From Candidatus Latescibacterota bacterium (GTDB lineage: Bacteria; Latescibacterota; UBA2968): a stretch of DNA of 64,000 nucleotides. The notes under the pieces are model-generated. The model was given only the letters and a program-made list of their open reading frames with translations. It was not told the DNA's origin and searched no databases. Positions within the stretch are counted from its first letter, which is position 1. The number at the start of each line of letters is the position of its first letter. Below are positions 4,933 through 34,403 of this stretch, piece after piece. The position numbers were made by a program, and so were the translations under genes. The stretch is taken from NCBI GenBank assembly GCA_022821275.1, contig JAJEDY010000018.1, positions 1 through 64,000 on the forward strand. The letters run 5' to 3'.

Positions 4933-5889
4933 ATGGCCAAACAAATAACAAAAAAAGGCTTTTGTGCCTACTATCTGGGCGGTTTGTTTGTCAGGATGAG
5001 CGATAATAACCTCTTTTTACTCTGTGGCGGCCTGGCTTTTGCCACTCTTTTGTGCCTTGTGCCTCTGGTCTTTCTGGTCTTCTTTGTACTTGAAGCCATA
5101 CTGGACGTGAGGGCGATAGCTCACCTGGTCAATCAAACGGTGGATGTACTCATCCCATATCCAGAAGAGGCCAGATATCTGAAGGAGATTTTATCTGTGC
5201 GCGTCTCAGGCGTCATGACCTTCAAGGAGGCTTATGGGGTTTCGGGTTTGCTGATTTTGATAGTATGCGCCAGTAGCCTGTTCAGCAGCATGAGAACCCT
5301 GCTCAATGCGGTCTTTAAGGTCGAGCACAGTTTTGAACTGAAAGAGGGCGAGATAGACCAGGTCACTGTGGAACGAATAAAAGATATGGGTACCCCAGGA
5401 CGCTGGGTAAAATTCTTGCACGGAGTTTTGCCAATAGCAGTGGGCAAACTGAAGGATCTCACTATGGTACTCCTGGTAGTGTATATTTTTCTTCTATTAG
5501 TCCTCTCACTGCCCATCCTATCTGCCGTCATCGACATCGCTCCGTCTCTGATCGCCTATGTGACCTACTTCTACGATCTCACCTCCCTCGCCCTGATTTT
5601 TGCCGTATTTCTGGGGCTATACTGGCTGGTTCCACATCAGAAAATCCAGATAAAGATGCTCGTTATAGGTGCTTTTTGGGCTGCTTTACTGTGGAAAATT
5701 ACCGAATGGATCTTTGGCTATTATCTGAGTCACTTCGCATCTATATCGTATCTGTATGGGGCTTATGTTCTGCTGGTAGTCGTGGCCTTGTGGATATACT
5801 TCTCGGTAATCATTTTTATTATAGGCGCTCAGATCGCCCAACTCTGCCGCGAAAGGCAGACTGTTGATCTCCAAAGTTCTTTATTTTAA
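4933..5889 (+). CDS. YihY/BrkB family inner-membrane protein
   Basis: A 318-residue polytopic membrane protein of the YihY/BrkB family (often misnamed ribonuclease BN). Six hydrophobic segments can be traced. Family traits include an early LAFATLLCLVPL helix, the YLVP-like YWLVPHQKI stretch in the second half, and YLYGAYVLLVVVALWIYFS near the C-terminus. The start is taken at the Met of MAKQITKKGF; an open frame reaches 22 codons further up, but that part lacks family character. The molecular function of the family is not settled. The gene is single and ends at a strong bidirectional terminator. Confidence 0.82.
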   Translation: MAKQITKKGFCAYYLGGLFVRMSDNNLFLLCGGLAFATLLCLVPLVFLVFFVLEAILDVRAIAHLVNQTVDVLIPYPEEARYLKEILSVRVSGVMTFKEAYGVSGLLILIVCASSLFSSMRTLLNAVFKVEHSFELKEGEIDQVTVERIKDMGTPGRWVKFLHGVLPIAVGKLKDLTMVLLVVYIFLLLVLSLPILSAVIDIAPSLIAYVTYFYDLTSLALIFAVFLGLYWLVPHQKIQIKMLVIGAFWAALLWKITEWIFGYYLSHFASISYLYGAYVLLVVVALWIYFSVIIFIIGAQIAQLCRERQTVDLQSSLF

Positions 5890-5891
5890 AA

Positions 5892-5929
5892 AAAGAAGCC
5901 GAGTTTTTTTTTAAAACTCGGCTTCTTTG
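5892..5929. terminator. Bidirectional intrinsic terminator
   Basis: A 16-base perfect stem (AAAGAAGCCGAGTTTT pairing with AAAACTCGGCTTCTTT) around a short T loop, with A-rich and T-rich flanks on both sides. It lies between the convergent BrkB gene and the first TonB-dependent receptor and can serve both. Confidence 0.9.
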
Positions 5930-5945
5930 TAACGGCTTACAACAC

Positions 5946-8615
5946 TTAAAGATCGAAATTGTAACTGGCTTTTGCGTACAGGAATGTGCCGCCAAAACCA
6001 TAAGGGCTGTACTCGCCGAATGGCCTGCCCACTATGGGGCCAGGGTTGACGCCTTCTTCGATATTATTGGGCTCGACATCGAGAATATTCTGAATGCCAG
6101 CGGTTATTGTCGTTCCATTGCCAATCGAGAGGCTGGACTCGATATCGACCAAAAATGCGTCTCCAAAGACTTGATGCCCCACGCTCCACTCATCCCAGGA
6201 ACCGTAATAATTGACGCGCCCCAATGCACTCCAATAAGGCGTTATGGGTTTTGACAGAGTCAAATTTCCTCGGTGTCTGGGAAGGCCCTTTTCCAATAGC
6301 GTGATGCGCTGTTCGTCGAGAAGGGCTGGGTCGTGTTTGGTCACTTCGGTGTTGGTGTAGTTATACGCGATACTCAGTTCGCCATAACACCACACTGGTG
6401 CCGTGAGAACGAAGTCAATACCCTGGGTTTTCGTTTCAAAGTCGTTGGTAAAGAACGCGAATTCCTGGAGGTTTCTCGCATTGATGCCCGTAGCCTCCAA
6501 CTGGTCAATTTGTTGCGGTGTAAGTGCCTTGTCGCTGGAGGTAGTCATGCGATCTTTCACTGAAATATTGAAATAGTCTATCGTTACATTGAGTGGGGCG
6601 ATATTGGTATCGACGGGATAAACGTGCTTCGTGAAAATAAGGCCAGCCGAGATATTGACGGACTTTTCCGGTTTAAGCCCTTCGCCGCCTACCAATGCCG
6701 CTGCGGGATGGATAGAGGGAATCGTGCCTCTATTGACCAGAATAAAATTGCCTGCGTCATCTTCGCCAAACTCGGTCGTGACATTAAAGGCATTTTGCTG
6801 CCCCGGCGAGGGCGCTCTAAAGCCCGTGCTAAAACTGCCGCGCACTCTCACATTTTCATTTACTTCGAAGTTGGTCGCCAGCTTAAAATTGGTCGTGGCA
6901 CCAAAATCCTCGAAGTTTTCAAAGCGCAGAGCCGCACCGAGCAACCAGTTCTCCTGTGGATTAAATTCGGCGTCTGCATAAATCGCCCAGTTGGAGCGGC
7001 TCCAACTCCCGGAGGCAATATCGCCGAAACCGGGGAATCCGTTGGAAGCCGAGCTAAATCCCTGACTCGCCAGCGGACCTATTTCAAAAGACTCGCGCTG
7101 TCCGGGCACAACTTCAAAGTTTTCAGTGCGATATTCAAGACCTGAGGCAAAGAAGAATTCCTCGCTAAACGGATAGGTGATATCGAAGTTGAAATTGGTA
7201 TCCGTCTGGATATAGTCTCCGGGATTAAATTCTGTCGGGGTATTGGGACCGAGAGAGGCGTTCACCGTATTGAAAATGAAGAAATCGGAGTGGTGTCGGC
7301 CATAAGATGCGCTGAGATCCCATGTCAGCAGCGACCGCGTTCCCCTGATACCCGCTAAAAAGGCACGATCTACCGTATTTCCGCCAAATCGGGGGGTAAA
7401 ACCACCGGGAAAGAGTTCCTGGAATGTGAACAAATTGGGATCGTCGAAAACCTGTTTTAAGGCCACCGGATCCGGCACTGAACAACTTATGGGTACCACG
7501 GGAACATCGCCACCGCTCATGTTGCCAACGAGCAATGTCGCTGTCAGCGTGCCGTTTACGCCATGGACAATACCCAGTTTCTCCGCTTCGGCCTGAGTAT
7601 AATAGTCCGTGCCGTCCCACATCAATACGGGTCCCTGATATACGGCACCGCGCGTATTGGGATTTCGGAAGTAGAAACCACCCTCAACTTCCTTGCTCGC
7701 ATAGTTGCCATGCCCGTAAAACTCGATATTCTCGTTAATATTAGCACCGTAATTGGCAAAAATTTTCAGGTCGTCTCTAACAAAGGGTTGCCCCCAGTTT
7801 TGTGCGGGATCCTTCACATGGGTATTGCCAACGCGTATCAAACGCGCGGCATCGTCGCGTTGAACAGCTCGGTCAGTTTCATCCGTATTGCCGTATTCCA
7901 CGCTGAGGTTGATCCAGGTATCTGGCGTACCCAGGCCGATATTGCCAGCCAGGGCGTAAGTGCCTCCGTCCCCTTGCCGGAAAATACCGGGTTTGATTTC
8001 AATAGAGCCGCCTTCGTAATTGTCTTTGAGTTCAAAATTCAACACGCCTGCAATAGCGTCAGAACCGTATTGCGCGGATGCGCCATCGCGCAGGACTTCC
8101 ACGCGCTTGAGGGCAATACTCGGGATAGCGGATATGTCTGGCCCCTGTGCGGCATTGGAGAGACCATTGCCCAGCCAGTAAATCACGGAGGCGCGGTGGC
8201 GGCGCTTGCCGTTGACGAGTACCAGCGCGTGGTCAGGTGCCAGTCCTCGCAGATTGGGCGGTCGCACGACGGTTGCCGCATCGCTGATCGGCTGGAGGTT
8301 GACATTGTAAGAGGGTACAACATTTCTCAGCAAGTCCTGTACATCGCTACCGCCTTGCTTAACGAAATCTTCGCCGGTAACCACATCGATGGGCACGGCA
8401 GATTCAGTGACAGAACGCGGTTGTGCGCGGGTACCGATAACCACCAGTTCTTCGAGCACGACCACTTCTTCGAGTATGTCTGTGAGTGGGGGTAAGGCTG
8501 CTGTCGTGTCCGCGTCTTCGGTACGCGGTGCTTCCTGTGATACGGCAGTGCCACTCATTGCAAGCAGGGCCCCCATGCCAAGAGCGAGAGACTTAAAAGG
8601 GGATTTATGTAGCAT
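5946..8615 (-). CDS. TonB-dependent outer-membrane receptor 1
   Basis: An 889-residue outer-membrane receptor that should import a ligand using energy from TonB (a tonB gene lies at 37450-38136). The Met at 8615 is preceded by AAAGGAG; the frame stays open for 31 more codons upstream without signal-peptide character. A signal peptide ends near SGTAVSQ. An acidic stretch with EELVVIGTRAQPRS acts as a TonB-box-like lead, then a plug domain (about 55-170) with VEVLRDGASAQYGSDAIAGV, then the barrel. The protein ends in NFDL, not in the usual aromatic residue. It is a close paralogue of the receptor at 8783-11509 and the same motifs recur throughout. Substrate cannot be told from sequence. Confidence 0.9.
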   Translation of the reverse strand: MLHKSPFKSLALGMGALLAMSGTAVSQEAPRTEDADTTAALPPLTDILEEVVVLEELVVIGTRAQPRSVTESAVPIDVVTGEDFVKQGGSDVQDLLRNVVPSYNVNLQPISDAATVVRPPNLRGLAPDHALVLVNGKRRHRASVIYWLGNGLSNAAQGPDISAIPSIALKRVEVLRDGASAQYGSDAIAGVLNFELKDNYEGGSIEIKPGIFRQGDGGTYALAGNIGLGTPDTWINLSVEYGNTDETDRAVQRDDAARLIRVGNTHVKDPAQNWGQPFVRDDLKIFANYGANINENIEFYGHGNYASKEVEGGFYFRNPNTRGAVYQGPVLMWDGTDYYTQAEAEKLGIVHGVNGTLTATLLVGNMSGGDVPVVPISCSVPDPVALKQVFDDPNLFTFQELFPGGFTPRFGGNTVDRAFLAGIRGTRSLLTWDLSASYGRHHSDFFIFNTVNASLGPNTPTEFNPGDYIQTDTNFNFDITYPFSEEFFFASGLEYRTENFEVVPGQRESFEIGPLASQGFSSASNGFPGFGDIASGSWSRSNWAIYADAEFNPQENWLLGAALRFENFEDFGATTNFKLATNFEVNENVRVRGSFSTGFRAPSPGQQNAFNVTTEFGEDDAGNFILVNRGTIPSIHPAAALVGGEGLKPEKSVNISAGLIFTKHVYPVDTNIAPLNVTIDYFNISVKDRMTTSSDKALTPQQIDQLEATGINARNLQEFAFFTNDFETKTQGIDFVLTAPVWCYGELSIAYNYTNTEVTKHDPALLDEQRITLLEKGLPRHRGNLTLSKPITPYWSALGRVNYYGSWDEWSVGHQVFGDAFLVDIESSLSIGNGTTITAGIQNILDVEPNNIEEGVNPGPIVGRPFGEYSPYGFGGTFLYAKASYNFDL

Positions 8616-24972: not shown

Positions 24973-25045
24973 GCCCCTGTAGCTCAGAGGATAGAGTAGC
25001 GGATTCCTAATCCGTTGGGCGCAGGTTCGAGTCCTGCCAGGGGCA
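24973..25045 (+). tRNA. tRNA-Arg (anticodon CCT)
   Basis: A complete 73-base cloverleaf can be drawn: 7-bp acceptor GCCCCTG/CAGGGGC, D arm GCTC/GAGT, anticodon arm GCGGA/TCCGT with loop TTCCTAA, a 5-base variable loop and T arm GCAGG/CCTGC with loop TTCGAGT. The discriminator is A and CCA is not encoded. Its 3' part is repeated at 32462-32486, marking it as the likely integration site of the accessory DNA that follows. Confidence 0.95.
25020..25044 (+). other. Left attachment-like repeat (attL) within the tRNA-Arg 3' end
   Basis: The last 25 bases of the tRNA (T arm and 3' acceptor strand) match 32462-32486 at 24 of 25 positions, with a perfect 19-base core TTCGAGTCCTGCCAGGGGC. This is the standard signature of tRNA-targeted integration. 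Confidence 0.7.
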
Positions 25046-25089
25046 CTTTTTTAGAAATACATTCCTTTAACGCAGCTAAGGATTGACTG

Positions 25090-25281
25090 ATGAAACGCGT
25101 TCTGACCATATCCAAATTTGATCCAAATGAGAAAGCATGCGATCATACGCGACATCTCACAGGTGATGAACGGGTATCCCTCCTTGAGCAACTACGCCGA
25201 GAAATGTCTAAGGTAAGCCATCGTGAATATCCAAAAAGACTTCGAAGAGTTCTTACAATTGCTAAACGCAATGGGGGTTGA
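25090..25281 (+). CDS. Small protein upstream of a nucleotidyltransferase relic (possible antitoxin-like partner)
   Basis: A 63-residue protein, MKRVLTISKF then HTRHLTGDERVSLLEQLRREM and a basic end YPKRLRRVLTIAKR. Small proteins of this plan (two strands flanking a helix with L-x-x-E-R-x-x-L/I-L) are often found directly before, and overlapping, a nucleotidyltransferase gene in accessory regions. Here the downstream partner starts inside this gene at 25223 but is broken. It is the first gene after the tRNA insertion site. Functional assignment is by context only. Confidence 0.5.
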   Translation: MKRVLTISKFDPNEKACDHTRHLTGDERVSLLEQLRREMSKVSHREYPKRLRRVLTIAKRNGG

Positions 25282-25300
25282 ATGGACTTGCTCCGTACCA
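25223..25300 (+). pseudogene. Nucleotidyltransferase relic (N-terminal fragment only)
   Basis: From the GTG at 25223 the frame reads MNIQKDFEEFLQLLNA, the usual opening of MNT-like nucleotidyltransferases that continue with a glycine-rich GGYAV motif. After NAMGVEW the sequence no longer resembles the family and no GGxxV or DxD motif follows before the convergent antitoxin gene at 25414. I read this as a truncated remnant. The boundary at about 25300 is approximate. Confidence 0.45.
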
Positions 25301-25413
25301 AAAAGCGATGCTGTTGCCGAATTCCGAATTTCTGCCTCGATGCAGCTAAACATAAGGGTTTACAGAAACAGCATCGTTTCTATGGACAGATTCCGCTATT
25401 CAGTCCGCTACTT

Positions 25414-25728
25414 TTACACGACCTCTTGTTGCCCTTCCACTGGTACGAAATTAATCTCAACCCTTTGATTCAATGCGACAGCGATTCTTTGAAGCATCGT
25501 GAGTGAATGTCCTTCATAATCTGCATCCTCAAGGCGGGCAATAACCGGTTGTTTGGATCCGATTAATTCTGCCAATTCAGTCTGCGTCAAGCCTGCCGCC
25601 TTTCTGACTTTATATATTAGACGAGCAACTTCTGCATTGACTGTCTCATCTGCAATCATCTGTTGCAATTCTTCATCATTCCCTGTTACATCATTTAGGA
25701 TTCGATTTGCATCTCTTGTCTTAGCCAT
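25414..25728 (-). CDS. HigA-like antitoxin (XRE-family HTH)
   Basis: A 104-residue protein with an N-terminal acidic helix region and a helix-turn-helix of the XRE/Cro type (about 38-95). The HTH stretch is VRKAAGLTQTELAELIGSKQ then ARLEDADY. Its start overlaps the toxin gene stop by 8 bases (toxin first, antitoxin second), the usual HigBA order. It is expected to neutralise the toxin and repress the operon. Confidence 0.85.
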   Translation of the reverse strand: MAKTRDANRILNDVTGNDEELQQMIADETVNAEVARLIYKVRKAAGLTQTELAELIGSKQPVIARLEDADYEGHSLTMLQRIAVALNQRVEINFVPVEGQQEVV

Positions 25729-26107
25729 TGGTCACGTCTCCTTCAAACAAATGCTGATCAGGATTTGCTTCAAAAACTCTCTTCCGCTCCACTGCGCGAT
25801 CCAAATCTCTGCGTGGTATTTGATCGTCCTTCGTTATGGCGTGAGCTAACACGCTGGCTTCCTGCCCATAAAAAAAGTATAGAATTCGATAATTTACTCG
25901 ACCTCGTCGAATACGTAATTCATAAATCCCTTGATCTAAATAATCTGCAAGCGGTCGTCGCAGTTCATGGCCAAGTTGAGACAACATACGAATCCGAGCA
26001 ACGCATTTCGCGTACCCCTGACGATCCGTCCGCTTCAGTTCTTTCAACCAGTCCAATACCGGAATCCGATTTCCGTCTTTATAAAAGAAAACGCTTATCT
26101 CTGGCAT
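25721..26107 (-). CDS. HigB/RelE-like toxin (phage Gp49-like family)
   Basis: A 128-residue type II toxin of the RelE superfamily, Gp49-like branch (COG4679-type), expected to cut mRNA on the ribosome. Family features are FYKDGNRIPVLDWLKEL at the start, LGHELRRPLADYLDQGIYELRI in the middle and RILYFF then HAITKDDQIPRRDLDRA near the end. I selected the Met of MPEISVFFYKD; an in-frame Met 8 codons upstream (26131) is possible, and neither has a strong ribosome site. It lies on the tRNA island. Confidence 0.85.
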   Translation of the reverse strand: MPEISVFFYKDGNRIPVLDWLKELKRTDRQGYAKCVARIRMLSQLGHELRRPLADYLDQGIYELRIRRGRVNYRILYFFYGQEASVLAHAITKDDQIPRRDLDRAVERKRVFEANPDQHLFEGDVTNG

Positions 26108-26131
26108 CCGCCTACTCACAATATGAACCAT

Positions 26132-26648
26132 CTAAGTTTGTATAACAATATTATTATAAAAATGACTCTGAATGTCAATGGCCAAATCTGGAGTTATTCC
26201 GTTTAGGTGGATATTTAGGGCTTGTGTATCAAGCCTGTGATTGATGCTGCTTGCCGTATAGAATCATTACGGCACATGCTTCATAGGCCATCGGCTATGT
26301 TCGCCATTATCGCTCCACGCTATTAACAATTTTTAGCTCTTGCCTCGGCCTGTTCACGCCTTACCAGCACCCTCAGATGCCCAGCCTGCAAGGTATATTA
26401 AAAAGCCTGGACAGACAAGAAAAATGAGTGTAATTTTCAACGCTCAATAACCACAAATCCTTCAACGGAACAGACTTTGCAATAAAAAAGGAAAGAGATG
26501 CCCAAAACCAACGAAATCGCCTTCAATGTTCGGCTATTAGATGTACTACAGACCAAGTATCCAAATTTCACCTAACCATACCGGGAAGTCCCGATGAGTC
26601 GATTGTAAATCTGAAGGATCAATTTGAGAATATCTAAGGAGTTAGAAA
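26132..26648. other. Gene-poor 517-bp stretch in the island
   Basis: No full gene is visible. The only coding-like patch is 26498-26575, where AGGAAAGAG precedes an ATG and a 25-codon frame MPKTNEIAFNVRLLDVLQTK then a stop; it looks like the surviving N-terminus of a lost gene. A GATCAATTTGAG-type tract and AAGGAG at 26636-26641 lead into the first PhyH gene. The rest appears to be decayed sequence. Confidence 0.5.
26498..26575 (+). pseudogene. N-terminal gene relic (25 codons)
   Basis: An ATG with AAAGGAAAGAG upstream opens a frame of 25 codons that starts MPKTNEIAFNVRLLDVLQTK and then hits TAA. The fragment is well formed (good ribosome site, amphipathic helix) but too short for a domain; I take it as the stub of a larger gene removed during island turnover. 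The original family is not recognised with certainty. Confidence 0.35.
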
Positions 26649-27701
26649 ATGGAACAGGAATTTCAGGAGCGTGTCGTAAAGATAGAGCCTCCAAAACGTC
26701 ACTTCGTACTTCTGATTTCACCTGACGGTTCTATGCTCGGCCTTGATGAAAGTAGCGAACTCGCCTTGCACGACGAAGCCGACGATCGCGTGATCTGGGA
26801 TCGCACACCAGAAGGCATAAAGCACGTGGCAACCGGTAAAGATGTATCCACCGATATCGATGAGGATGTCTGCACATTGTCTGTCGGTTCAGACGAGATG
26901 ACCTTCACCACCTATCACGGCCCTGAAAAATTGCCGTCTGAATATCTCGAACACTTAAAGCGCGAAGGGTGGGTCTGTCTGACCTGTATTCTGCCACCAG
27001 ACATTTTAGAAGATATGGAACGCGTCGCCGGTACAGATCGTTACGAACACCTGGAAATGAACACCGACATACCCAGGATCTGTCAGAGTGTCTCTGTTGC
27101 CAGAGCATCCATTGAGCCCATCTCCATTTGGTTGGCCAGACAGTATATGGGAGCCCGCGATTTACACCTCTCGCATCCACCCGGTTTTAGAATCGAGTAC
27201 CCGGATGATGGCAAAAGAAAACTGGGCGGTTGGCACTCTGATTTTCCCTATTCGGCGTCAACCGGTGGCAATGAGCCTCCCGACAGAAAGGGACCCATTA
27301 AGGCCATGCAACGCAATGTCTGTGTGTCTGACTTTACCAAGATTCGCGGTGCAACAGCATTTAAACTGGGCTCACATCTATCAGACACACCCCCACCACC
27401 AGAGTGGAACGACACACAAGCGAGTCGCTTTCCCTATCACGGCCCTGAAGCCGATGTGATAGAAGCGCCCGGTGGTAGCGTCATCCTCTACGATGCCAGG
27501 ATGTGGCATCGAGCAGGCATCAACCGCAGCCAGCAGAAAAGATCTGCAATGCTACAATCGTTCCAAGCACCAGATGTTCTGCCCAAAAACGACACCACAG
27601 CCACGTATGAACGCCTCGTGGAGAGTCCCATTTTCAATGAACTAAATGATAGAGAACAGAAGGATATAACAGCACTGCTGACCAATACAGTGGAAAAATG
27701 A
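26649..27701 (+). CDS. Phytanoyl-CoA dioxygenase (PhyH) family protein, long form
   Basis: A 350-residue protein whose residues about 90-320 look like a PhyH-type Fe(II)/2-oxoglutarate dioxygenase. The metal facial triad can be proposed as H-x-D in GGWHSDFPY and the distal His in ARMWHRAGINRS, whose Arg would hold 2-oxoglutarate. The first 85 residues are an extra N-terminal domain not usual for PhyH. AAGGAG precedes the ATG. Its stop overlaps the sulfatase start (ATGATGA arrangement), so the two are translationally coupled. Bacterial PhyH proteins hydroxylate many small molecules, so phytanoyl-CoA itself is not implied. Confidence 0.8.
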   Translation: MEQEFQERVVKIEPPKRHFVLLISPDGSMLGLDESSELALHDEADDRVIWDRTPEGIKHVATGKDVSTDIDEDVCTLSVGSDEMTFTTYHGPEKLPSEYLEHLKREGWVCLTCILPPDILEDMERVAGTDRYEHLEMNTDIPRICQSVSVARASIEPISIWLARQYMGARDLHLSHPPGFRIEYPDDGKRKLGGWHSDFPYSASTGGNEPPDRKGPIKAMQRNVCVSDFTKIRGATAFKLGSHLSDTPPPPEWNDTQASRFPYHGPEADVIEAPGGSVILYDARMWHRAGINRSQQKRSAMLQSFQAPDVLPKNDTTATYERLVESPIFNELNDREQKDITALLTNTVEK

Positions 27702-29929
27702 TGGAATCAAATTTTCGTGGCAAGATAGGCATCTCCTACAAGGATTCAGAGCCAGATTGGCTTTCCCCCCCATCGTCAGACGGCGCTCCAAACGTCCTTG
27801 TGATTCTTCTGGATGATACCGGATTCGGCAATCTGGGTTGCTATGGTTCGACAATCGAAACACCAAACATGGACGCCCTCGCAGCAAACGGGTTGCGGTA
27901 CAACAATTTTCATGTCACGCCCCTATGTTCCCCGACCCGAGCATCTCTGTTAACCGGTCGCAACCACCATGCCGTTGGTATGTCGACGATTGTCGATGGC
28001 GGTGATGCTGGGTTTCCCAACCGTCGAAGTCGCGTGAGCCGACACGCGGCAACCCTGGCAGAGATGCTGAGCGAAGAAGGCTTCGCCACCTTTGCCCTGG
28101 GCAAATGGCATCTCAACCCCAGTACACAAAACTCAGCTGGTGGATCTCGCGAAGAATGGCCATTACAGCGCGGGTTCGATCGCTTCTACGGATTCTTACC
28201 CGGTGCAACCGACCAGTTTTATCCAGAACTGACCTATGACAACCACCCTGTATCGCCCCCAAAAACGCCTGAAGAAGGTTATCACCTCACAGAGGATCTG
28301 GTAGATCACGCCATCGAGTTTGTCAATGACCTCAAGGCCATGCGTCCCGAAACACCGTTCTTCATGTACTTCGCGCCCGGTGCTATGCATAACCCACATC
28401 AAGCGCCAAAAGAATACATCGATAAATACAAAGGTCGTTTTGACGAAGGGTGGGACGTTATCCGTGAGCGCTATTTTCAAAAGCAAACCGAACTTGGGAT
28501 TATCCCTGACGGCACGCGCCTGCCACCCAGGAATCCCGGCGTACAGCCCTGGGAAACACTGAGCCAGAATGAAAAGAATTTCGTGTGCCGGCTGCAGGAA
28601 ACATGGGCAGGTTTCCTCGAGCATACGGATGCACAAATCGGACGACTGATCGAACATCTGCGCGCTATTGATCAACTGGATAATACACTCCTGATACTCA
28701 CCGCCGACAACGGCACCAGCCAAAACGGTGGTCCTTACGGTGTTATGAACATTGGTCCAAGTCCCCTGCGCAATGCCGCAAATAATGGGCAGACCGTAGG
28801 CGGGAAAACCGGTCGCGCTTTACCAGAAGAAGATTTCGATGCCATACAAGAAAAACTGGATGACATCGGGAGCCCGCACAGCTACACCGATATCCCCTGG
28901 GGTTGGGCGCAGGTGGGCAACACACCCTTGCCATGGTACAAGCAGGATACACATGCGGGCGGTGTACGCGTGCCGATAATCATTCACTATCCCCCAGCTA
29001 TAAAAGATGCTGGCGGTGTAAGGGGACAGTTCCACTTCGTTTCAGATCTCACACCAACAATACTTGAAGTACTCAATTTACAACCTCGGTCGTGCTACCG
29101 TGGATACGATCAGATGCCTATTACGGGAACGAGCATGGCCTACACTTTTGACGACAGAGATTGCCCTACGCAAAAACCTGTTCAGTATTTTGAAATGATG
29201 GGCAACCGTGCGCTCTGGCTCGACGGCTGGATGGCCGTTACCAGACACGACCCAGACGACGATTACAATGATGACGAATGGGAATTGTATTATCTCGATG
29301 AAGATTTCTCGCAATCCAATAACCTCGCAAAGGCCGAGCCAGATCAACTGAAAAAGCTGATTGAAAGATGGTGGGTAGAAGCCGGACGCTATGGCGTCTT
29401 GCCTCTGCGCTCTGGGCTGCCACCGCGCCCCACCACTGCGGAACCCGATTCGCTGACGTATCATTTTGTTCCGCCAATGGCTCGCATTGCATCAAAACAA
29501 TCGCCCGCACTGGAACAGGGAAACTGGTCATTAACTGCCGAAGTTGAGATCCTGCCAAAAACCGAAGGCGTCATCTATGCCCAGGGAAAATCCCTCGATG
29601 GATTTTCTTTATTCATACAGAATGGCACACTGTGCTTTGTGTATAACGCGCTGGGTCAAACAATCTCAGGTCGTTCCACAACGACGCTTCCCAATGGTCG
29701 TATTACCGTGGGCGCTGCGTTCAAACCAGCCGACGATGGCACGGGAACCATCACGCTCACGGGAGATGGCGAGACAATCGGTTCGATCCAAATTCCAGAC
29801 GCCACACGCAGGTCAAAGATGCGCGGTGTAGAAGTCGGTCGCAACCGACATTCACCTATCGCGGGCGTTTCACCTTTTGAATTCACTGGCGTTATCCATT
29901 TTGTAGATATATGCGTAGAACTCAGGTGA
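27698..29929 (+). CDS. Type I sulfatase (arylsulfatase family)
   Basis: A 743-residue alkaline-phosphatase-fold sulfatase. The metal-binding ILLDDTGFGNLG near the start and CSPTRASLLTGR, whose Cys is converted to formylglycine, are diagnostic, followed by GKWHL and TADNGTSQNGG. The last 150 or so residues (after about 590) form an extra beta-rich, lectin- or laminin-G-like region with FEFTGVIHFVDI. No signal peptide is apparent at MMESNFRGKIGISYK, so it may be cytoplasmic. A formylglycine-generating enzyme gene is not in the window. It lies between two PhyH genes and a TPP enzyme. Confidence 0.92.
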   Translation: MMESNFRGKIGISYKDSEPDWLSPPSSDGAPNVLVILLDDTGFGNLGCYGSTIETPNMDALAANGLRYNNFHVTPLCSPTRASLLTGRNHHAVGMSTIVDGGDAGFPNRRSRVSRHAATLAEMLSEEGFATFALGKWHLNPSTQNSAGGSREEWPLQRGFDRFYGFLPGATDQFYPELTYDNHPVSPPKTPEEGYHLTEDLVDHAIEFVNDLKAMRPETPFFMYFAPGAMHNPHQAPKEYIDKYKGRFDEGWDVIRERYFQKQTELGIIPDGTRLPPRNPGVQPWETLSQNEKNFVCRLQETWAGFLEHTDAQIGRLIEHLRAIDQLDNTLLILTADNGTSQNGGPYGVMNIGPSPLRNAANNGQTVGGKTGRALPEEDFDAIQEKLDDIGSPHSYTDIPWGWAQVGNTPLPWYKQDTHAGGVRVPIIIHYPPAIKDAGGVRGQFHFVSDLTPTILEVLNLQPRSCYRGYDQMPITGTSMAYTFDDRDCPTQKPVQYFEMMGNRALWLDGWMAVTRHDPDDDYNDDEWELYYLDEDFSQSNNLAKAEPDQLKKLIERWWVEAGRYGVLPLRSGLPPRPTTAEPDSLTYHFVPPMARIASKQSPALEQGNWSLTAEVEILPKTEGVIYAQGKSLDGFSLFIQNGTLCFVYNALGQTISGRSTTTLPNGRITVGAAFKPADDGTGTITLTGDGETIGSIQIPDATRRSKMRGVEVGRNRHSPIAGVSPFEFTGVIHFVDICVELR

Positions 29930-29994
29930 GAAACTAAACCAACGTCAAAGTTCTGCGTCCCATCACCAGCAGAAGACCATAGGAGGAGACCCCA

Positions 29995-31668
29995 ATGCCC
30001 CAAATGACAGGTGCACGATTTCTCGCAGAAACCGTGCATGGCCACGGAATAGACACCGTCTTTTTTATGCCCTACATCGCGCCCCGAGCATTGATGGAAA
30101 TGGAAAATCTCGGCATGAAACGCGTGCAAACCCACGGAGAAAAAGCCGCCGCGTACATGGCCGATGCGTATGCGCGCGTCAGACGCGGTCCAGGTCTTTG
30201 TATGGCCCAATCCGTTGGTGCCGTTAACCTCGCTGCTGGTCTTCAAGACGCCTATCTTGCCTGCTCGCCTGTTATCGCAATCACAGGCAAAGAAAGCCAT
30301 GTCAATCAGCTCCGCCATGCCTATCAGGAAGTCGATCACCGAAACCCGTTTTGTGCAGTTACAAAATACACCGCTGATGTCCACGCCGTCGATCTGTTGC
30401 CCGTGTATTTGCGGCAGGCTTTTCGATCAGCCACCACAGGCACACCCGGTCCCGTACATCTCGATCTACAAGGTCTTGCCGGTCAAGTCGTCGTTGAAGC
30501 CGAAGCCGATTTTGAAGTCGTCATCGAATCTGCCTTTTCCCAGATTCCACCTTTTCGCCCAACTGCCGAACCCGAATTGATCACCGAAGCCCTCAGCCTT
30601 CTTTCTCAAGCCAAAAAGCCGATCATCATGGCCGGTGGCGGTGTGACCACATCCGATGCCAGTGCCGAACTCATCGCCCTTGCCGAGAAGCTTTCTATCC
30701 CCGTTGCCACATCCCTCAATGCCAAAGCCATGTTTCCCGCCGATCACGAACTCGCTATCGGCACACCCGGTTCATACTCACGCGCCTGTGCCAATCAGGC
30801 CATGTTTGAAACCGATCTGGTTTTCTTCATCGGCAGTCATACGGGCGGGCAGGTTACCAATGGGTATAAAGTGCCGCCACAAGGCACGCCCATCATTCAA
30901 CTCGACATCAATGCCGAAGAATTGGGTCGCAACTATCCCCTCACCCTCGGCCTTCAAGGCGACGTGCGAAACACATTGCGCCTCATGATTGATCAGGCCA
31001 GCAAAGCAGAGCCTCGCACCCAATGGATCGCCCGCATCCACGAACTCGTCAACGCATGGAAAGAAGACATGGCCAAACATGTCAACTCCGACACCGAACC
31101 CATGCGTCCCGAACGCCTCTGCAAAGAACTGTCTGACTTTCTTCCTTCCGATGCCATACTCGTCTCCGACACAGGACACTCCGGCATCTGGACCGGCACC
31201 ATGCTCGACTTCAAATATCCCACACAATCTTATATCCGCTGTTCTGGTTCACTCGGCTGGGGTTTCCCGGCAGCCCTCGGTGCCAAATGCGCCGCACCAG
31301 ACCGTCCCGTCATTTGCTTCACTGGCGATGGGGGCATCTGGTATCACATGACCGAACTCGACACCGCCATGAAATCCGAAATCAACACCGTCACCGTCAT
31401 CAACAACAACCATTCGCTGAACCAGGAACAAGGTGGTGTAGAACACACCTATGGCGGTCGTACCAAAGGCTCTGACGAACTCTGGCTCTTCCCAGACGCA
31501 GACTTTGCCAAAATGGCCGAAGCCATGGGATGCTTTGGCATCACCGTCAACAAAATCAGCGAGCTGCAAAGTGCTCTTGAGCAAGCCCTCAACGCAGACA
31601 AACCCGCCGTCGTCGATGTCAAAACCCATCTCGAAGGCATTGCTGCAAAAGCCTGGATGCCAGCCTAA
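29995..31668 (+). CDS. TPP-dependent enzyme of the acetolactate synthase / 2-hydroxyacyl-CoA lyase superfamily
   Basis: A 557-residue thiamine-diphosphate enzyme. THGEKAAAYMADAYAR contains the catalytic Glu that activates TPP, the central domain has the MAGGGVTTSDA fold, and FTGDGGIWYHMTELDTA with the later NNNHSLNQEQGG is the TPP/Mg-binding motif. GGAGGAG lies before the ATG. The superfamily includes acetolactate synthase, sulfoacetaldehyde acetyltransferase, oxalyl-CoA decarboxylase and 2-hydroxyacyl-CoA lyase; which one applies is open, but the flanking PhyH genes favour a lyase role. No acetolactate synthase small subunit is present. Codon choice is strongly C-ending (GCC, CTC, ATC, ACC), unlike most genes outside the island. 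Confidence 0.85.
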   Translation: MPQMTGARFLAETVHGHGIDTVFFMPYIAPRALMEMENLGMKRVQTHGEKAAAYMADAYARVRRGPGLCMAQSVGAVNLAAGLQDAYLACSPVIAITGKESHVNQLRHAYQEVDHRNPFCAVTKYTADVHAVDLLPVYLRQAFRSATTGTPGPVHLDLQGLAGQVVVEAEADFEVVIESAFSQIPPFRPTAEPELITEALSLLSQAKKPIIMAGGGVTTSDASAELIALAEKLSIPVATSLNAKAMFPADHELAIGTPGSYSRACANQAMFETDLVFFIGSHTGGQVTNGYKVPPQGTPIIQLDINAEELGRNYPLTLGLQGDVRNTLRLMIDQASKAEPRTQWIARIHELVNAWKEDMAKHVNSDTEPMRPERLCKELSDFLPSDAILVSDTGHSGIWTGTMLDFKYPTQSYIRCSGSLGWGFPAALGAKCAAPDRPVICFTGDGGIWYHMTELDTAMKSEINTVTVINNNHSLNQEQGGVEHTYGGRTKGSDELWLFPDADFAKMAEAMGCFGITVNKISELQSALEQALNADKPAVVDVKTHLEGIAAKAWMPA

Positions 31669-31707
31669 ATCGTTTAATCATAAACATCATTTTTTGGAGG
31701 AGCAACA

Positions 31708-32454
31708 ATGTCAATTGAGCAATTACAAAAAAATGGCCTAACCGGTCCTTTTGAGTTGGCAGACAAATCCCTCGTCGATGCCGTATGTGAGGTCGGGATA
31801 GAACTACAAGCGCTACAACGCCAGGAAAATATCGTGCGCCAGTTGGCAGGACAAGAACCCCAATTTAGAACGAAGATCGATAGACACATGGAATTCAAGG
31901 TGATGAGAGACCTCTGTCTCGATGACAATGTGAAGTCCGTGGTGTCCGAACATTTCGGCAACGATCTTTTTATCTGGGGTAGCGTTTTTCAATTGAAATC
32001 TGAAGGCGTGTCAGAAAATATATGGCACCACGATCGCGCATACGAAAACGGTCGCGATCAAGTCAATCTCTATGATACCAGCAACCACTTCACGGTTCTA
32101 TTTGCGTTGACCGACATTGGGTACGGTGCTGGCCGCATCGAATATGTGAAGGGATCTCATCAACCCATTGATGGATGGAACAGAGATATGCGATTTGTAA
32201 AAGAAGTGCCAGAACTCGTCCATGATAGGATCGGCACACTCACAATGGAAAGAGGCCAGTTCACGGTGTTTCATTCTCAAATCATGCATCGCAGTCTGCC
32301 TTTTGAGTATGGCGAGCCAAGAATCTCATTGGCTGTAAGACTCGCGAGGAAGGGCACACAAATCCCCGATTATTATCCACAAAATCCAAATCCGGCCGCA
32401 GAAACACAAGGGATCGCCCGTTTCATCCCTTCAGCAACATTTGATTTTAATTAG
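31708..32454 (+). CDS. Phytanoyl-CoA dioxygenase (PhyH) family protein, short form
   Basis: A 248-residue Fe(II)/2-oxoglutarate dioxygenase-like protein. The metal-binding H-x-D is in IWHHDRAYE, followed by the GAGRIEYVKGSHQ loop typical of PhyH proteins, and the distal His is in FHSQIMHRSLP with an Arg in GEPRISLAVR for the cosubstrate. GGAGGAG stands 8 bases before the ATG. It is last in the four-gene cassette and its stop is 7 bases before the right attachment-like repeat. It is only distantly similar to the longer PhyH protein at 26649, so it is not a recent duplicate. Confidence 0.82.
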   Translation: MSIEQLQKNGLTGPFELADKSLVDAVCEVGIELQALQRQENIVRQLAGQEPQFRTKIDRHMEFKVMRDLCLDDNVKSVVSEHFGNDLFIWGSVFQLKSEGVSENIWHHDRAYENGRDQVNLYDTSNHFTVLFALTDIGYGAGRIEYVKGSHQPIDGWNRDMRFVKEVPELVHDRIGTLTMERGQFTVFHSQIMHRSLPFEYGEPRISLAVRLARKGTQIPDYYPQNPNPAAETQGIARFIPSATFDFN

Positions 32455-32461
32455 AATCAGT

Positions 32462-32486
32462 CGCAGATTCGAGTCCTGCCAGGGGC
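32462..32486 (+). other. Right attachment-like repeat (attR), partial tRNA-Arg 3' end
   Basis: This 25-base stretch repeats the tRNA-Arg T arm and 3' acceptor strand (24/25). It is followed by G-CCA, i.e. a discriminator G with encoded CCA, unlike the tRNA at 24973 where A-CT follows. No 5' half of a tRNA precedes it, so it is not a working tRNA gene. Confidence 0.7.
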
Positions 32487-32491
32487 GCCAA

Positions 32492-32917
32492 TCAGTCTCT
32501 GACGATGTTGTATTTCTTTAGCTTTCGGTACAGAGTCGCCCGACTAATACCCAGTGCCTGGACGGCCTGGGTAATGTTGTTGCCCGTGGCTTCGAGCGTG
32601 TAAATCAGGGCTTGTCGCTCGATTTCAGCCAGTGGTAGCATCGCCAGTGGTGCCGAGGGATCTCTTTCCAAAGTAATGGCCGGCGATAGCTGAGACGGCA
32701 GGTTGCCTACTTGTAGCACCTCGGTCGTCTCTAACAGCACGGCGCGCGCTATAGCGTTCTCCAATTCGCGTACGTTGCCCGGCCAATCGTACTGCAGCAG
32801 CAGGCGCAGGGCAAGGGTGGAAATGCCGCTTATGGATTTGGAGGCCTGGGCAGTGTACTTCTCGAGAAAATGCCTGGCCAGCAGGGGGATATCTTCACGC
32901 CGATCTCCTCTTGCTGG
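32492..32917 (-). pseudogene. C-terminal fragment of an NtrC-type sigma-54 activator
   Basis: On the minus strand the frame reads RREDIPLLARHFLEKY, then the WPGNVRELENAIARA segment of AAA+ sigma-54 activators, then a Fis-type helix-turn-helix ending with ALGISRATLYRKLKKYNI. The central ATPase (GAFTGA motif) and receiver domain are missing, and an in-frame stop lies at 32918-32920 just before RGDRRED. The gene is therefore a broken remnant. Its stop codon is 6 bases from the right attachment repeat. A Met inside the fragment (32764) could start a 90-residue DNA-binding peptide, but expression is doubtful. Confidence 0.7.
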
Positions 32918-33358
32918 CTATCGCACACCGGTGCGGTAGAGCGGTAGAATAGCTTTGGCTCCTCGCCAGCACCGGTCGTTTCCACCACATTGTCGTCATT
33001 GGGCGGAGAAATTTCCTCCAGGTCGCCCAGGTCGGGTTCCCGGAATTGCTCTTTGAAGTCCCTGGGCGGATCCCTATATCACGGTAGCTGGGCAATTGTG
33101 TTTCAACAAGCTGCCAGTGGTGAGGGTATGCTATGGATACGGGAGGGAGATAAAAACAGAGAGGGTAGTCCTGTCATTGTCGGCTGATGTGACGTGGTGT
33201 GACATTGGCCACCTCCCTTTGGGCTACCCTCTCCAAGCATGTTCTGAGAAGACAATACGTGGATGGCTACTACAAGAATAGAAAACAGTAAAATGACACT
33301 GTTCCTCTTTATCAAATTTGTGTACGTCTGCACGTGGATTGCTAAAAGGAGGTGACCT
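32918..33358. other. Decayed DNA between the NtrC relic and a small membrane gene
   Basis: No intact gene is supported. Minus-strand frames carry protein-like patches (KEQFREPDLGDLEEI near 33000-33050; HWQLVETQLPSYRDIG near 33080-33120) in different frames, as in a frameshifted gene. The arms GAGAGGGTAG and CTACCCTCTC form an inverted repeat around 33159-33235. A 76-codon minus-strand frame ending at 33103 starts with a hydrophobic helix but becomes low-complexity, and I do not call it. Confidence 0.45.
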
Positions 33359-33635: not shown

Positions 33636-34403
33636 TTAGACGCCAGTGGTCAAGAGACCGCCATCCACTGGTAGGGAGGCACCGGTAATATTACCGGCCG
33701 CGGGCGAACAGAGAAAGGCAACGGCTCGTCCGATATCCTCAGGGGTGCCACGGCGCTCCAGAGGGATATTGGCTTTGAGTTCGTCGGACACGCTGCCCAC
33801 AGACGGGGCCTGAGTGTCAAAAACATGGCTCAGGTCCATGTAACCCGGCATTACGGCGTTGCAGCGGATATTGTGGGAACCCAGGTCCACAGCCATGCTC
33901 TCGGTGAGACGCAGAACACCGGCTTTGGCCACTCCGTAGGCCGTATCCTCGGGCCATGCGCGGTAGGCATGGACCGAAGATGTACTGACAATGCAACCTC
34001 CCTCGCCCTGTTGTACCATAATGCGGGCGGCTTGCTGGCTGCAAAGAAAAAAGCCTTTGAGACACACGTCCAGGGTCAAATCCCAGTTTTCTTCGGTGAT
34101 TTCGAGGAAGGTAGCCCCGCTTCCGGCATAGGGATTGTTAACCAGGATATCAAGGCGATTAAAACGTGCGATGAAGGCGGTGAACATCGCTTCTACCTGT
34201 GCTCGGTCGGATATATCAGCCTGAAAGAAGTCGGCTTCTCGCCCCTGATCCCGGATCAGTTCCAGGGTCCTGTCGGCATCGGCATCTCGTTCCAGATCAT
34301 TGATGCCTACATCACAGCCTGCCTGAGCCAGAGCAAGGGCAATTCCGCGACCGATATTGCGGCGTCCACCTGTGACGAGAGCCTTTTTCCCATCGAGTGA
34401 CAT
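33636..34403 (-). CDS. SDR-family oxidoreductase (FabG-like)
   Basis: A 255-residue short-chain dehydrogenase/reductase of the classical type. Cofactor loop TGGRRNIGRG, the LVNNP variant of NNAG, catalytic Ser in VSTSSVHAY and Y-x3-K in YGVAKAG are visible, and the C-terminal SLPVDGGLLTTGV is typical. GGGAG lies ahead of the start. The NNPYAG variant replaces the usual NNAG. The substrate is unknown. It is a lone gene, divergent from the CYTH-CHAD-ParA operon. Confidence 0.9.
   Translation of the reverse strand: MSLDGKKALVTGGRRNIGRGIALALAQAGCDVGINDLERDADADRTLELIRDQGREADFFQADISDRAQVEAMFTAFIARFNRLDILVNNPYAGSGATFLEITEENWDLTLDVCLKGFFLCSQQAARIMVQQGEGGCIVSTSSVHAYRAWPEDTAYGVAKAGVLRLTESMAVDLGSHNIRCNAVMPGYMDLSHVFDTQAPSVGSVSDELKANIPLERRGTPEDIGRAVAFLCSPAAGNITGASLPVDGGLLTTGV

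Follow-up and report, generated by a model that had tools for sequence, protein, structure and literature searches.

A PhyH, sulfatase and ThDP-enzyme gene cassette at a tRNA-Arg site in a Latescibacterota genome

The cassette and its genes

The DNA analysed here (the window) is a stretch of 64,000 nucleotides from a Candidatus Latescibacterota bacterium, contig JAJEDY010000018.1 of assembly GCA_022821275.1 (genome G000 below). It contains a cassette of four genes at 26649-32454, which lies a short way downstream of a tRNA-Arg(CCT) gene (Table 1). A preliminary description typed the genes as PhyH, sulfatase, thiamine diphosphate (ThDP, or TPP) enzyme and PhyH, and proposed that they form a module like peroxisomal alpha-oxidation. 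The typing is borne out by the open reading frames (ORFs) and by Pfam, where all four products have matches above cut-off (35.6 bits for PhyH1, against a PhyH cut-off of 22; the scores of PhyH2 and the sulfatase are in Table 1). The four genes are not, however, a conserved bacterial counterpart of peroxisomal alpha-oxidation.

Table 1. Features of the cassette and its surroundings, in window positions
Feature	Position	Strand	Evidence or remark
tRNA-Arg(CCT), site of the locus in the genus	24973-25046	+	ARAGORN; same tRNA upstream in relatives
25-nt tRNA 3' end, left copy of att-like direct repeat	25020-25044	+	CGCAGGTTCGAGTCCTGCCAGGGGC
Helix-turn-helix (HTH) antitoxin-like gene, 104 aa	25414-25728	-	Sequence; homologue adjoins SDR in G007
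HigB/RelE-like toxin gene, Gp49 family, 136 aa	25721-26131	-	PF05973, 56.6 bits
PhyH1, Fe(II)/2-oxoglutarate (2OG) dioxygenase, ~95-aa N-terminal extension, predicted beta-rich	26649-27701	+	350 aa; PF05721 at 182-300
S1-type formylglycine sulfatase (AtsA-like)	27698-29929	+	743 aa; PF00884, 206.6 bits
~670-nt deletion scar, NIPSNAP gene of relatives lost here	29930-29994	+	Alignment to G007
ThDP-dependent enzyme, uncharacterised family	29995-31668	+	557 aa; TPP_enzyme N/M/C; own 100/100 clade
PhyH2, Fe(II)/2OG dioxygenase, hydroxylase rather than halogenase type	31708-32454	+	248 aa; PF05721, 45.9 bits
tRNA-Arg 3' end, right copy	32462-32486	+	24/25 nt identical; not in relatives' loci examined
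Broken sigma54-type (Fis-HTH) regulator, remnant	32487-33300	-	Translated fragments across several frames
SDR oxidoreductase, right flank marker of the locus in the genus	33636-34403	-	PF13561; right flank in G001, G006, G007

The first two genes are joined by an ATGA at 27698-27701, a 4-nt overlap of the sulfatase start with the stop of PhyH1, and not with its start as had been stated. An AG-rich stretch resembling a Shine-Dalgarno sequence precedes every start codon except this overlapping one. Judged from the sequence, the catalytic residues of all four products are intact. Both PhyH proteins have the HxD...H iron ligands expected of the family (H196/D198/H287 with R298 in PhyH1, all invariant; H107/D109, H194 and R205 in PhyH2), the sulfatase has the formylglycine motif C/S-x-P-x-R as C77-S-P-T-R81, and the ThDP enzyme has its catalytic E49, GDG at 444-446 and NN at 471-472. 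The preference of the ThDP gene for codons ending in C, pointed out earlier, is real: its C3 of 0.443 is the highest among the 26 long ORFs of the window (median 0.264).

The best match of the sulfatase in the PDB is the P. aeruginosa arylsulfatase 4cxk (4.9e-72; 244-246 bits to 4cxk/1hdh). It resembles these AtsA-type S1 enzymes in the CxPxR motif but carries an extra C-terminal region of ~150 residues, and it has no evident signal peptide. PhyH1 and PhyH2 share family and Fe/2OG ligands with known PF05721 dioxygenases, including the 2'-O-methyl-nucleoside demethylases of PMC12709175 and the expanded poribacterial set of PMC3909097. PhyH1 differs from them by its additional N-terminal domain, and PhyH2 in having been found in this genus alone (among 46 relatives). 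The N-terminal domain was rightly recognised in the preliminary description: residues 1-97 match no Pfam family, and the structure model, which is weak (mean pLDDT 37.9) and usable for residues 19-90 alone, predicts eight strands there. The fold matches of this domain are FGF-like beta-trefoils with E of 0.1 or more, which is not significant. A halogenase function for PhyH2 was considered and ruled out, since HxD is intact and the chlorinating-enzyme model scores 45.7 against a cut-off of 226.3.

The 3' end of the tRNA, starting at 25020, recurs immediately after PhyH2, at 32462, with all but one of its 25 nt identical. The 19-nt core of this sequence is expected 0 times by chance. Such a pair is the usual mark of an integrated element, and by this mark the enclosed segment would be an island, consisting of the cassette and, in its left part, the HigBA-like toxin-antitoxin pair. 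No integrase was recognised on reading the ORFs of 25047-32461, where the hidden Markov model scan was limited to the five main genes. The loci examined in relatives of the genus have a single copy of the tRNA 3' end. The regulator remnant that follows the right copy was not found in them either.

Versions of the locus within the genus

The source genome comprises 5.66 Mb in 101 contigs. Its closest named relatives are mostly Latescibacterota metagenome-assembled genomes (MAGs), and mostly sponge-associated. Because most genomes compared are MAGs, presence and absence are uncertain near contig ends (G002, G003, G009); gene calls beyond the window are longest-ORF calls. Versions of the locus were found in seven other genomes of the genus (G001, G003, G005, G006, G007, G009 and G010). 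The longer ones occupy the same tRNA-Arg site and have up to four sulfatases, plus Gfo/Idh, NIPSNAP and a third PhyH. With genes missing from some relatives in parentheses, the fuller order is PhyH1, (xylose-isomerase-like TIM-barrel isomerase), (Gfo/Idh), (sulfatase of 487 aa), sulfatase of 743 aa, (sulfatase of 747 aa), NIPSNAP, ThDP enzyme, PhyH2, (PhyH3 or sulfatase of 451 aa), (OtnK-like kinase and class II aldolase), (253-aa gene).

The order PhyH1-sulfatase-ThDP-PhyH2, in the same transcriptional direction, is seen in six genomes (G000, G001, G005, G006, G007 and G010). The relatives that have it always carry at least the NIPSNAP insertion, the window being the sole exception: on alignment, G007 5727-6399, which is ~670 nt and most of the NIPSNAP gene, is missing between window positions 29937 and 29938. 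The window copy is the most reduced version of the locus. A binning artefact was ruled out, since the cassette also lies within a single-contig chromosome of 6.53 Mb (OX638329.1, G007).

Within the genus the four genes are often linked, but not always. The G009 locus has no ThDP gene, and PhyH2 directly follows NIPSNAP. G003 retains the ThDP gene but has no PhyH1 at the tRNA site (a 75% copy is on another contig), and its PhyH2 is in a second locus. The four genes are therefore not a conserved unit. In G002 and G004 the ThDP gene has no match that reaches E 1e-80, and G008 has just a 69% homologue elsewhere. Between species, the segments of the island mostly share 94-99% identity, whereas the apt/tRNA flank is at roughly 87-91% in the majority of them; the G002 flank is 94-97% identical, and its contig ends there. 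The higher identity of the island is consistent with exchange between species.

A paralogous locus (L206, on contig 65 of G000, and L207, L208 and L125) shares PhyH1 (42-46%), a sulfatase (~90%) and the 253-aa gene (~80%) with this one. It also contains a galactonate-dehydratase-type enzyme that scores over its cut-off (327.6 against 311), Gfo/Idh, sugar-isomerase-like genes and an arylsulfotransferase-family gene. It has no ThDP gene, and in G003 it is the locus that holds PhyH2.

The ThDP enzyme and its partners

Relatives of the ThDP enzyme with 65-78% identity occur in Poribacteria, Chloroflexota, Pseudomonadota, Verrucomicrobiota, Spirochaetota, Deinococcota and other Latescibacterota, and G013 has a homologue with 83% identity over a partial gene. 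In a tree of 45 proteins, in which the branches are long and the deep order is unsafe, these relatives and a protein from an Achromobacter plasmid (48.5-48.6% identity) form a clade with 100/100 support. PRK06112-type proteins, with about 34% identity, come next, within the same 100/98 clade; they go with proteins annotated as 'acetolactate synthase catalytic subunit'. We know of no function for the PRK06112-type or Achromobacter proteins. The window family differs from these nearest relatives by active-site changes of its own, including QS-VGA for SGPGA, H451, N470 and Q477. The first of these turns the canonical SGPG loop into QS-VG with a one-residue deletion.

The gene neighbourhoods of the family were compared in the best 80 of 170 places found; the labels CysD/CysN-like, sulfatase-like (in G013) and several of the dehydrogenases were read by eye from the protein sequences, and not all of these were scanned. 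In most Poribacteria and Chloroflexota the ThDP gene has no obvious catabolic partners. SDRs are found beside or near it in Poribacteria, Alphaproteobacteria and Chloroflexota, Zn-alcohol dehydrogenases beside or near it in some relatives, and 3HCDH-type dehydrogenases beside it in G011 and G019, with another in Alphaproteobacteria. Betaproteobacteria bin200 has a sugar-acid-dehydratase-like protein of the enolase superfamily nearby, which scores below cut-offs, and G013 has sulfatase-like genes. In three Alphaproteobacteria loci (L075, L084, L099), CysD- and CysN-like genes for sulfate activation lie a few kb upstream of the ThDP gene, accompanied by two SDRs, the 3HCDH-type dehydrogenase and a solute-binding protein gene.

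A PhyH gene directly downstream of the ThDP gene, at 22-57 nt and on the same strand, is a recurrent feature. It occurs in three contexts: this genus; G008, together with a second ThDP locus of G009, where it is directly downstream; and Poribacteria L028/L032 together with Verrucomicrobia L078. The PhyH of L028/L032 is also present in L030/L031, but there at a distance of about 1 kb downstream. In blastp the three types of PhyH show no significant similarity to one another apart from weak matches (best E 8e-4). For a PhyH share of roughly 3% of genes, three contexts out of about nine independent ones exceed expectation, although that share is an estimate from an assumed ~5,300 genes, and the statistic was picked after the data had been seen. 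Since unrelated PhyH genes follow the ThDP gene in three contexts, a partnership of oxygenase and ThDP enzyme is plausible.

What the locus may do

Our preferred explanation, which is tentative, is that the four genes remain from a larger, modular catabolic locus at tRNA-Arg(CCT) that is exchanged horizontally and serves the CoA-free breakdown of a small sulfated compound resembling a sugar acid. The S1 sulfatase, presumably cytosolic, would take the sulfate off a small imported compound, for which a sugar acid or a polyhydroxy acid related to one is the most likely candidate. This would then be oxidised at a C-H position by the PhyH enzymes, through hydroxylation or O-dealkylation, and the ThDP enzyme would cleave or decarboxylate the C-C bond adjoining the resulting carbonyl, without CoA. 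In the fuller loci, a 3-oxo-tetronate-kinase-like (OtnK-like) enzyme and the class II aldolase could complete the breakdown. We infer the substrate, the order of the steps and the absence of CoA. The companions, namely the kinase, the aldolase and the galactonate-dehydratase-type enzyme, indicate sugar-acid rather than fatty-acyl chemistry. The Gfo/Idh and isomerase-like genes of the fuller and paralogous loci, the dehydrogenase and sugar-acid-dehydratase-like neighbours of the ThDP gene elsewhere, and the gene surroundings of the Achromobacter homologue also favour this reading. A kinase and aldolase pair also occurs in tetronate catabolism (OtnK with the class II aldolase decarboxylase OtnC); the pair in the relatives differs in scoring under curated cut-offs, in being missing from the window, and in its association with sulfatases, PhyHs and a ThDP enzyme.

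Several points weigh against this explanation. The kinase scores just under its curated cut-off (328 bits against 350) and the aldolase well under. Kinase, aldolase and NIPSNAP are all lost from the window copy, whose pathway may therefore be incomplete. The ThDP gene of most Poribacteria and Chloroflexota adjoins no sulfatase or sugar-acid genes, and its own reaction may therefore be unrelated to sulfated sugars. No transporter was found within the locus.

It is less likely, though it deserves serious attention, that a hotspot for gene swapping in a genome rich in both families has gathered unrelated enzymes with no common pathway. The source genome has at least 154 PhyH and at least 150 sulfatase matches, and gene content varies by species, as G009 and G003 illustrate. 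An abundance of PhyH is already known in Poribacteria (PMC3909097). Against a chance gathering, the gene order and direction are the same in six genomes, and in three contexts the ThDP gene is followed by a PhyH of a different type each time. In addition, 24 PhyH genes of the source genome have a sulfatase domain on the same strand within 600 nt, where 5.2 are expected (~4.6x), under a null of random placement that ignores operon clustering (500 draws, largest 13). This is indicative of an enrichment of such neighbours, and the PhyH-sulfatase pairing of the cassette is one among many in this genome.

The proposed alpha-oxidation could also have a CoA-free analogue. A PhyH would hydroxylate the position next to the carbonyl of an acid or sugar acid, and an undescribed family of ThDP lyases, widespread in sponge-associated bacteria, would cleave the product, different lineages having recruited different PhyH partners. 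We consider this doubtful. What stands of the original proposal is the adjacency of ThDP and PhyH genes in three contexts; membership of the ThDP enzyme in the HACL/OXC family is not supported by the tests that were run.

The CoA-dependent form of that proposal, in which an acyl-CoA would be 2-hydroxylated by PhyH and then split by the ThDP enzyme into an aldehyde and formyl-CoA, is improbable. The enzyme does have the ThDP fold and catalytic Glu in common with HACL/OXC, and its AlphaFold model (mean pLDDT 77) has HACL/HACS structures as best Foldseek matches (E 1.7e-39). AHAS (1.2e-38) and Gcl (2.1e-38) are nearly tied with these, little more than tenfold behind, so that the fold search does not tell HACL apart from AHAS or Gcl. 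A joint clade with OXC/HACL is not rejected by the approximately unbiased (AU) test (p 0.37), ThDP-PhyH adjacency recurs, and 3HCDH-type dehydrogenases adjoin the ThDP gene in the genomes named above. The tree, however, does not recover that grouping and places the enzyme in a separate clade, at 23-27% identity to HACL/OXC, with 3 of the 45 OXC/HACL signature residues. Neither the window nor any of the neighbourhoods fetched showed an AMP-binding (acyl-CoA ligase) motif in a motif scan, which did not cover CoA transferases. This, with the sugar-acid companions, speaks against acyl-CoA chemistry. Nor is the PhyH family specific for acyl-CoA, since many of the PF05721 proteins act as demethylases of 2'-O-methyl nucleosides (PMC12709175).

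An Xsc-like role, in which the ThDP enzyme would release sulfite from an organosulfonate while the sulfatase handles sulfate esters, is more improbable again. It would fit the sulfatase neighbours in the window, the sulfatase-like genes in G013 and the CysD/CysN-like genes of the Alphaproteobacteria, and a grouping with Xsc, though not recovered in the tree, is not rejected (p 0.29). The equivalog model, however, scores 242.6 against a cut-off of 676.4, 14 of 120 Xsc signature columns agree, and no phosphotransacetylase was recognised beside the ThDP gene, unlike in the Rhodococcus xsc reference. An ordinary acetolactate synthase is very improbable and was rejected: acetolactate-synthase models give the best NCBIfam scores, but all are under cut-off (338.8 against 538.35), the AU test rejects grouping with AHAS (p 0.017), 4 of 36 AHAS signature columns agree, no small subunit was recognised beside the gene, and the source genome holds a closer AHAS candidate (L005). 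The enzyme thus groups firmly with neither of these two families.

In the source genome and in each of the poribacterial genomes checked, PhyH genes number a hundred or more, and sulfatase genes range from tens to over a hundred. We found no paper that explains this abundance, nor one on PhyH together with sulfatase in sponge symbionts or Latescibacteria. The locus links the two families to a single uncharacterised ThDP enzyme, highly conserved across several phyla. With its named partners this enzyme is a concrete handle, and its substrate could explain part of the metabolism of these uncultured bacteria. A lead to that substrate, in a named and sequenced host, is the homologue on the Achromobacter plasmid CP150726.1 (L178 5309-10659). 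Its surroundings include genes for TauD-family dioxygenases, an SMP-30/gluconolactonase, SDRs and a tricarboxylate-type transporter.

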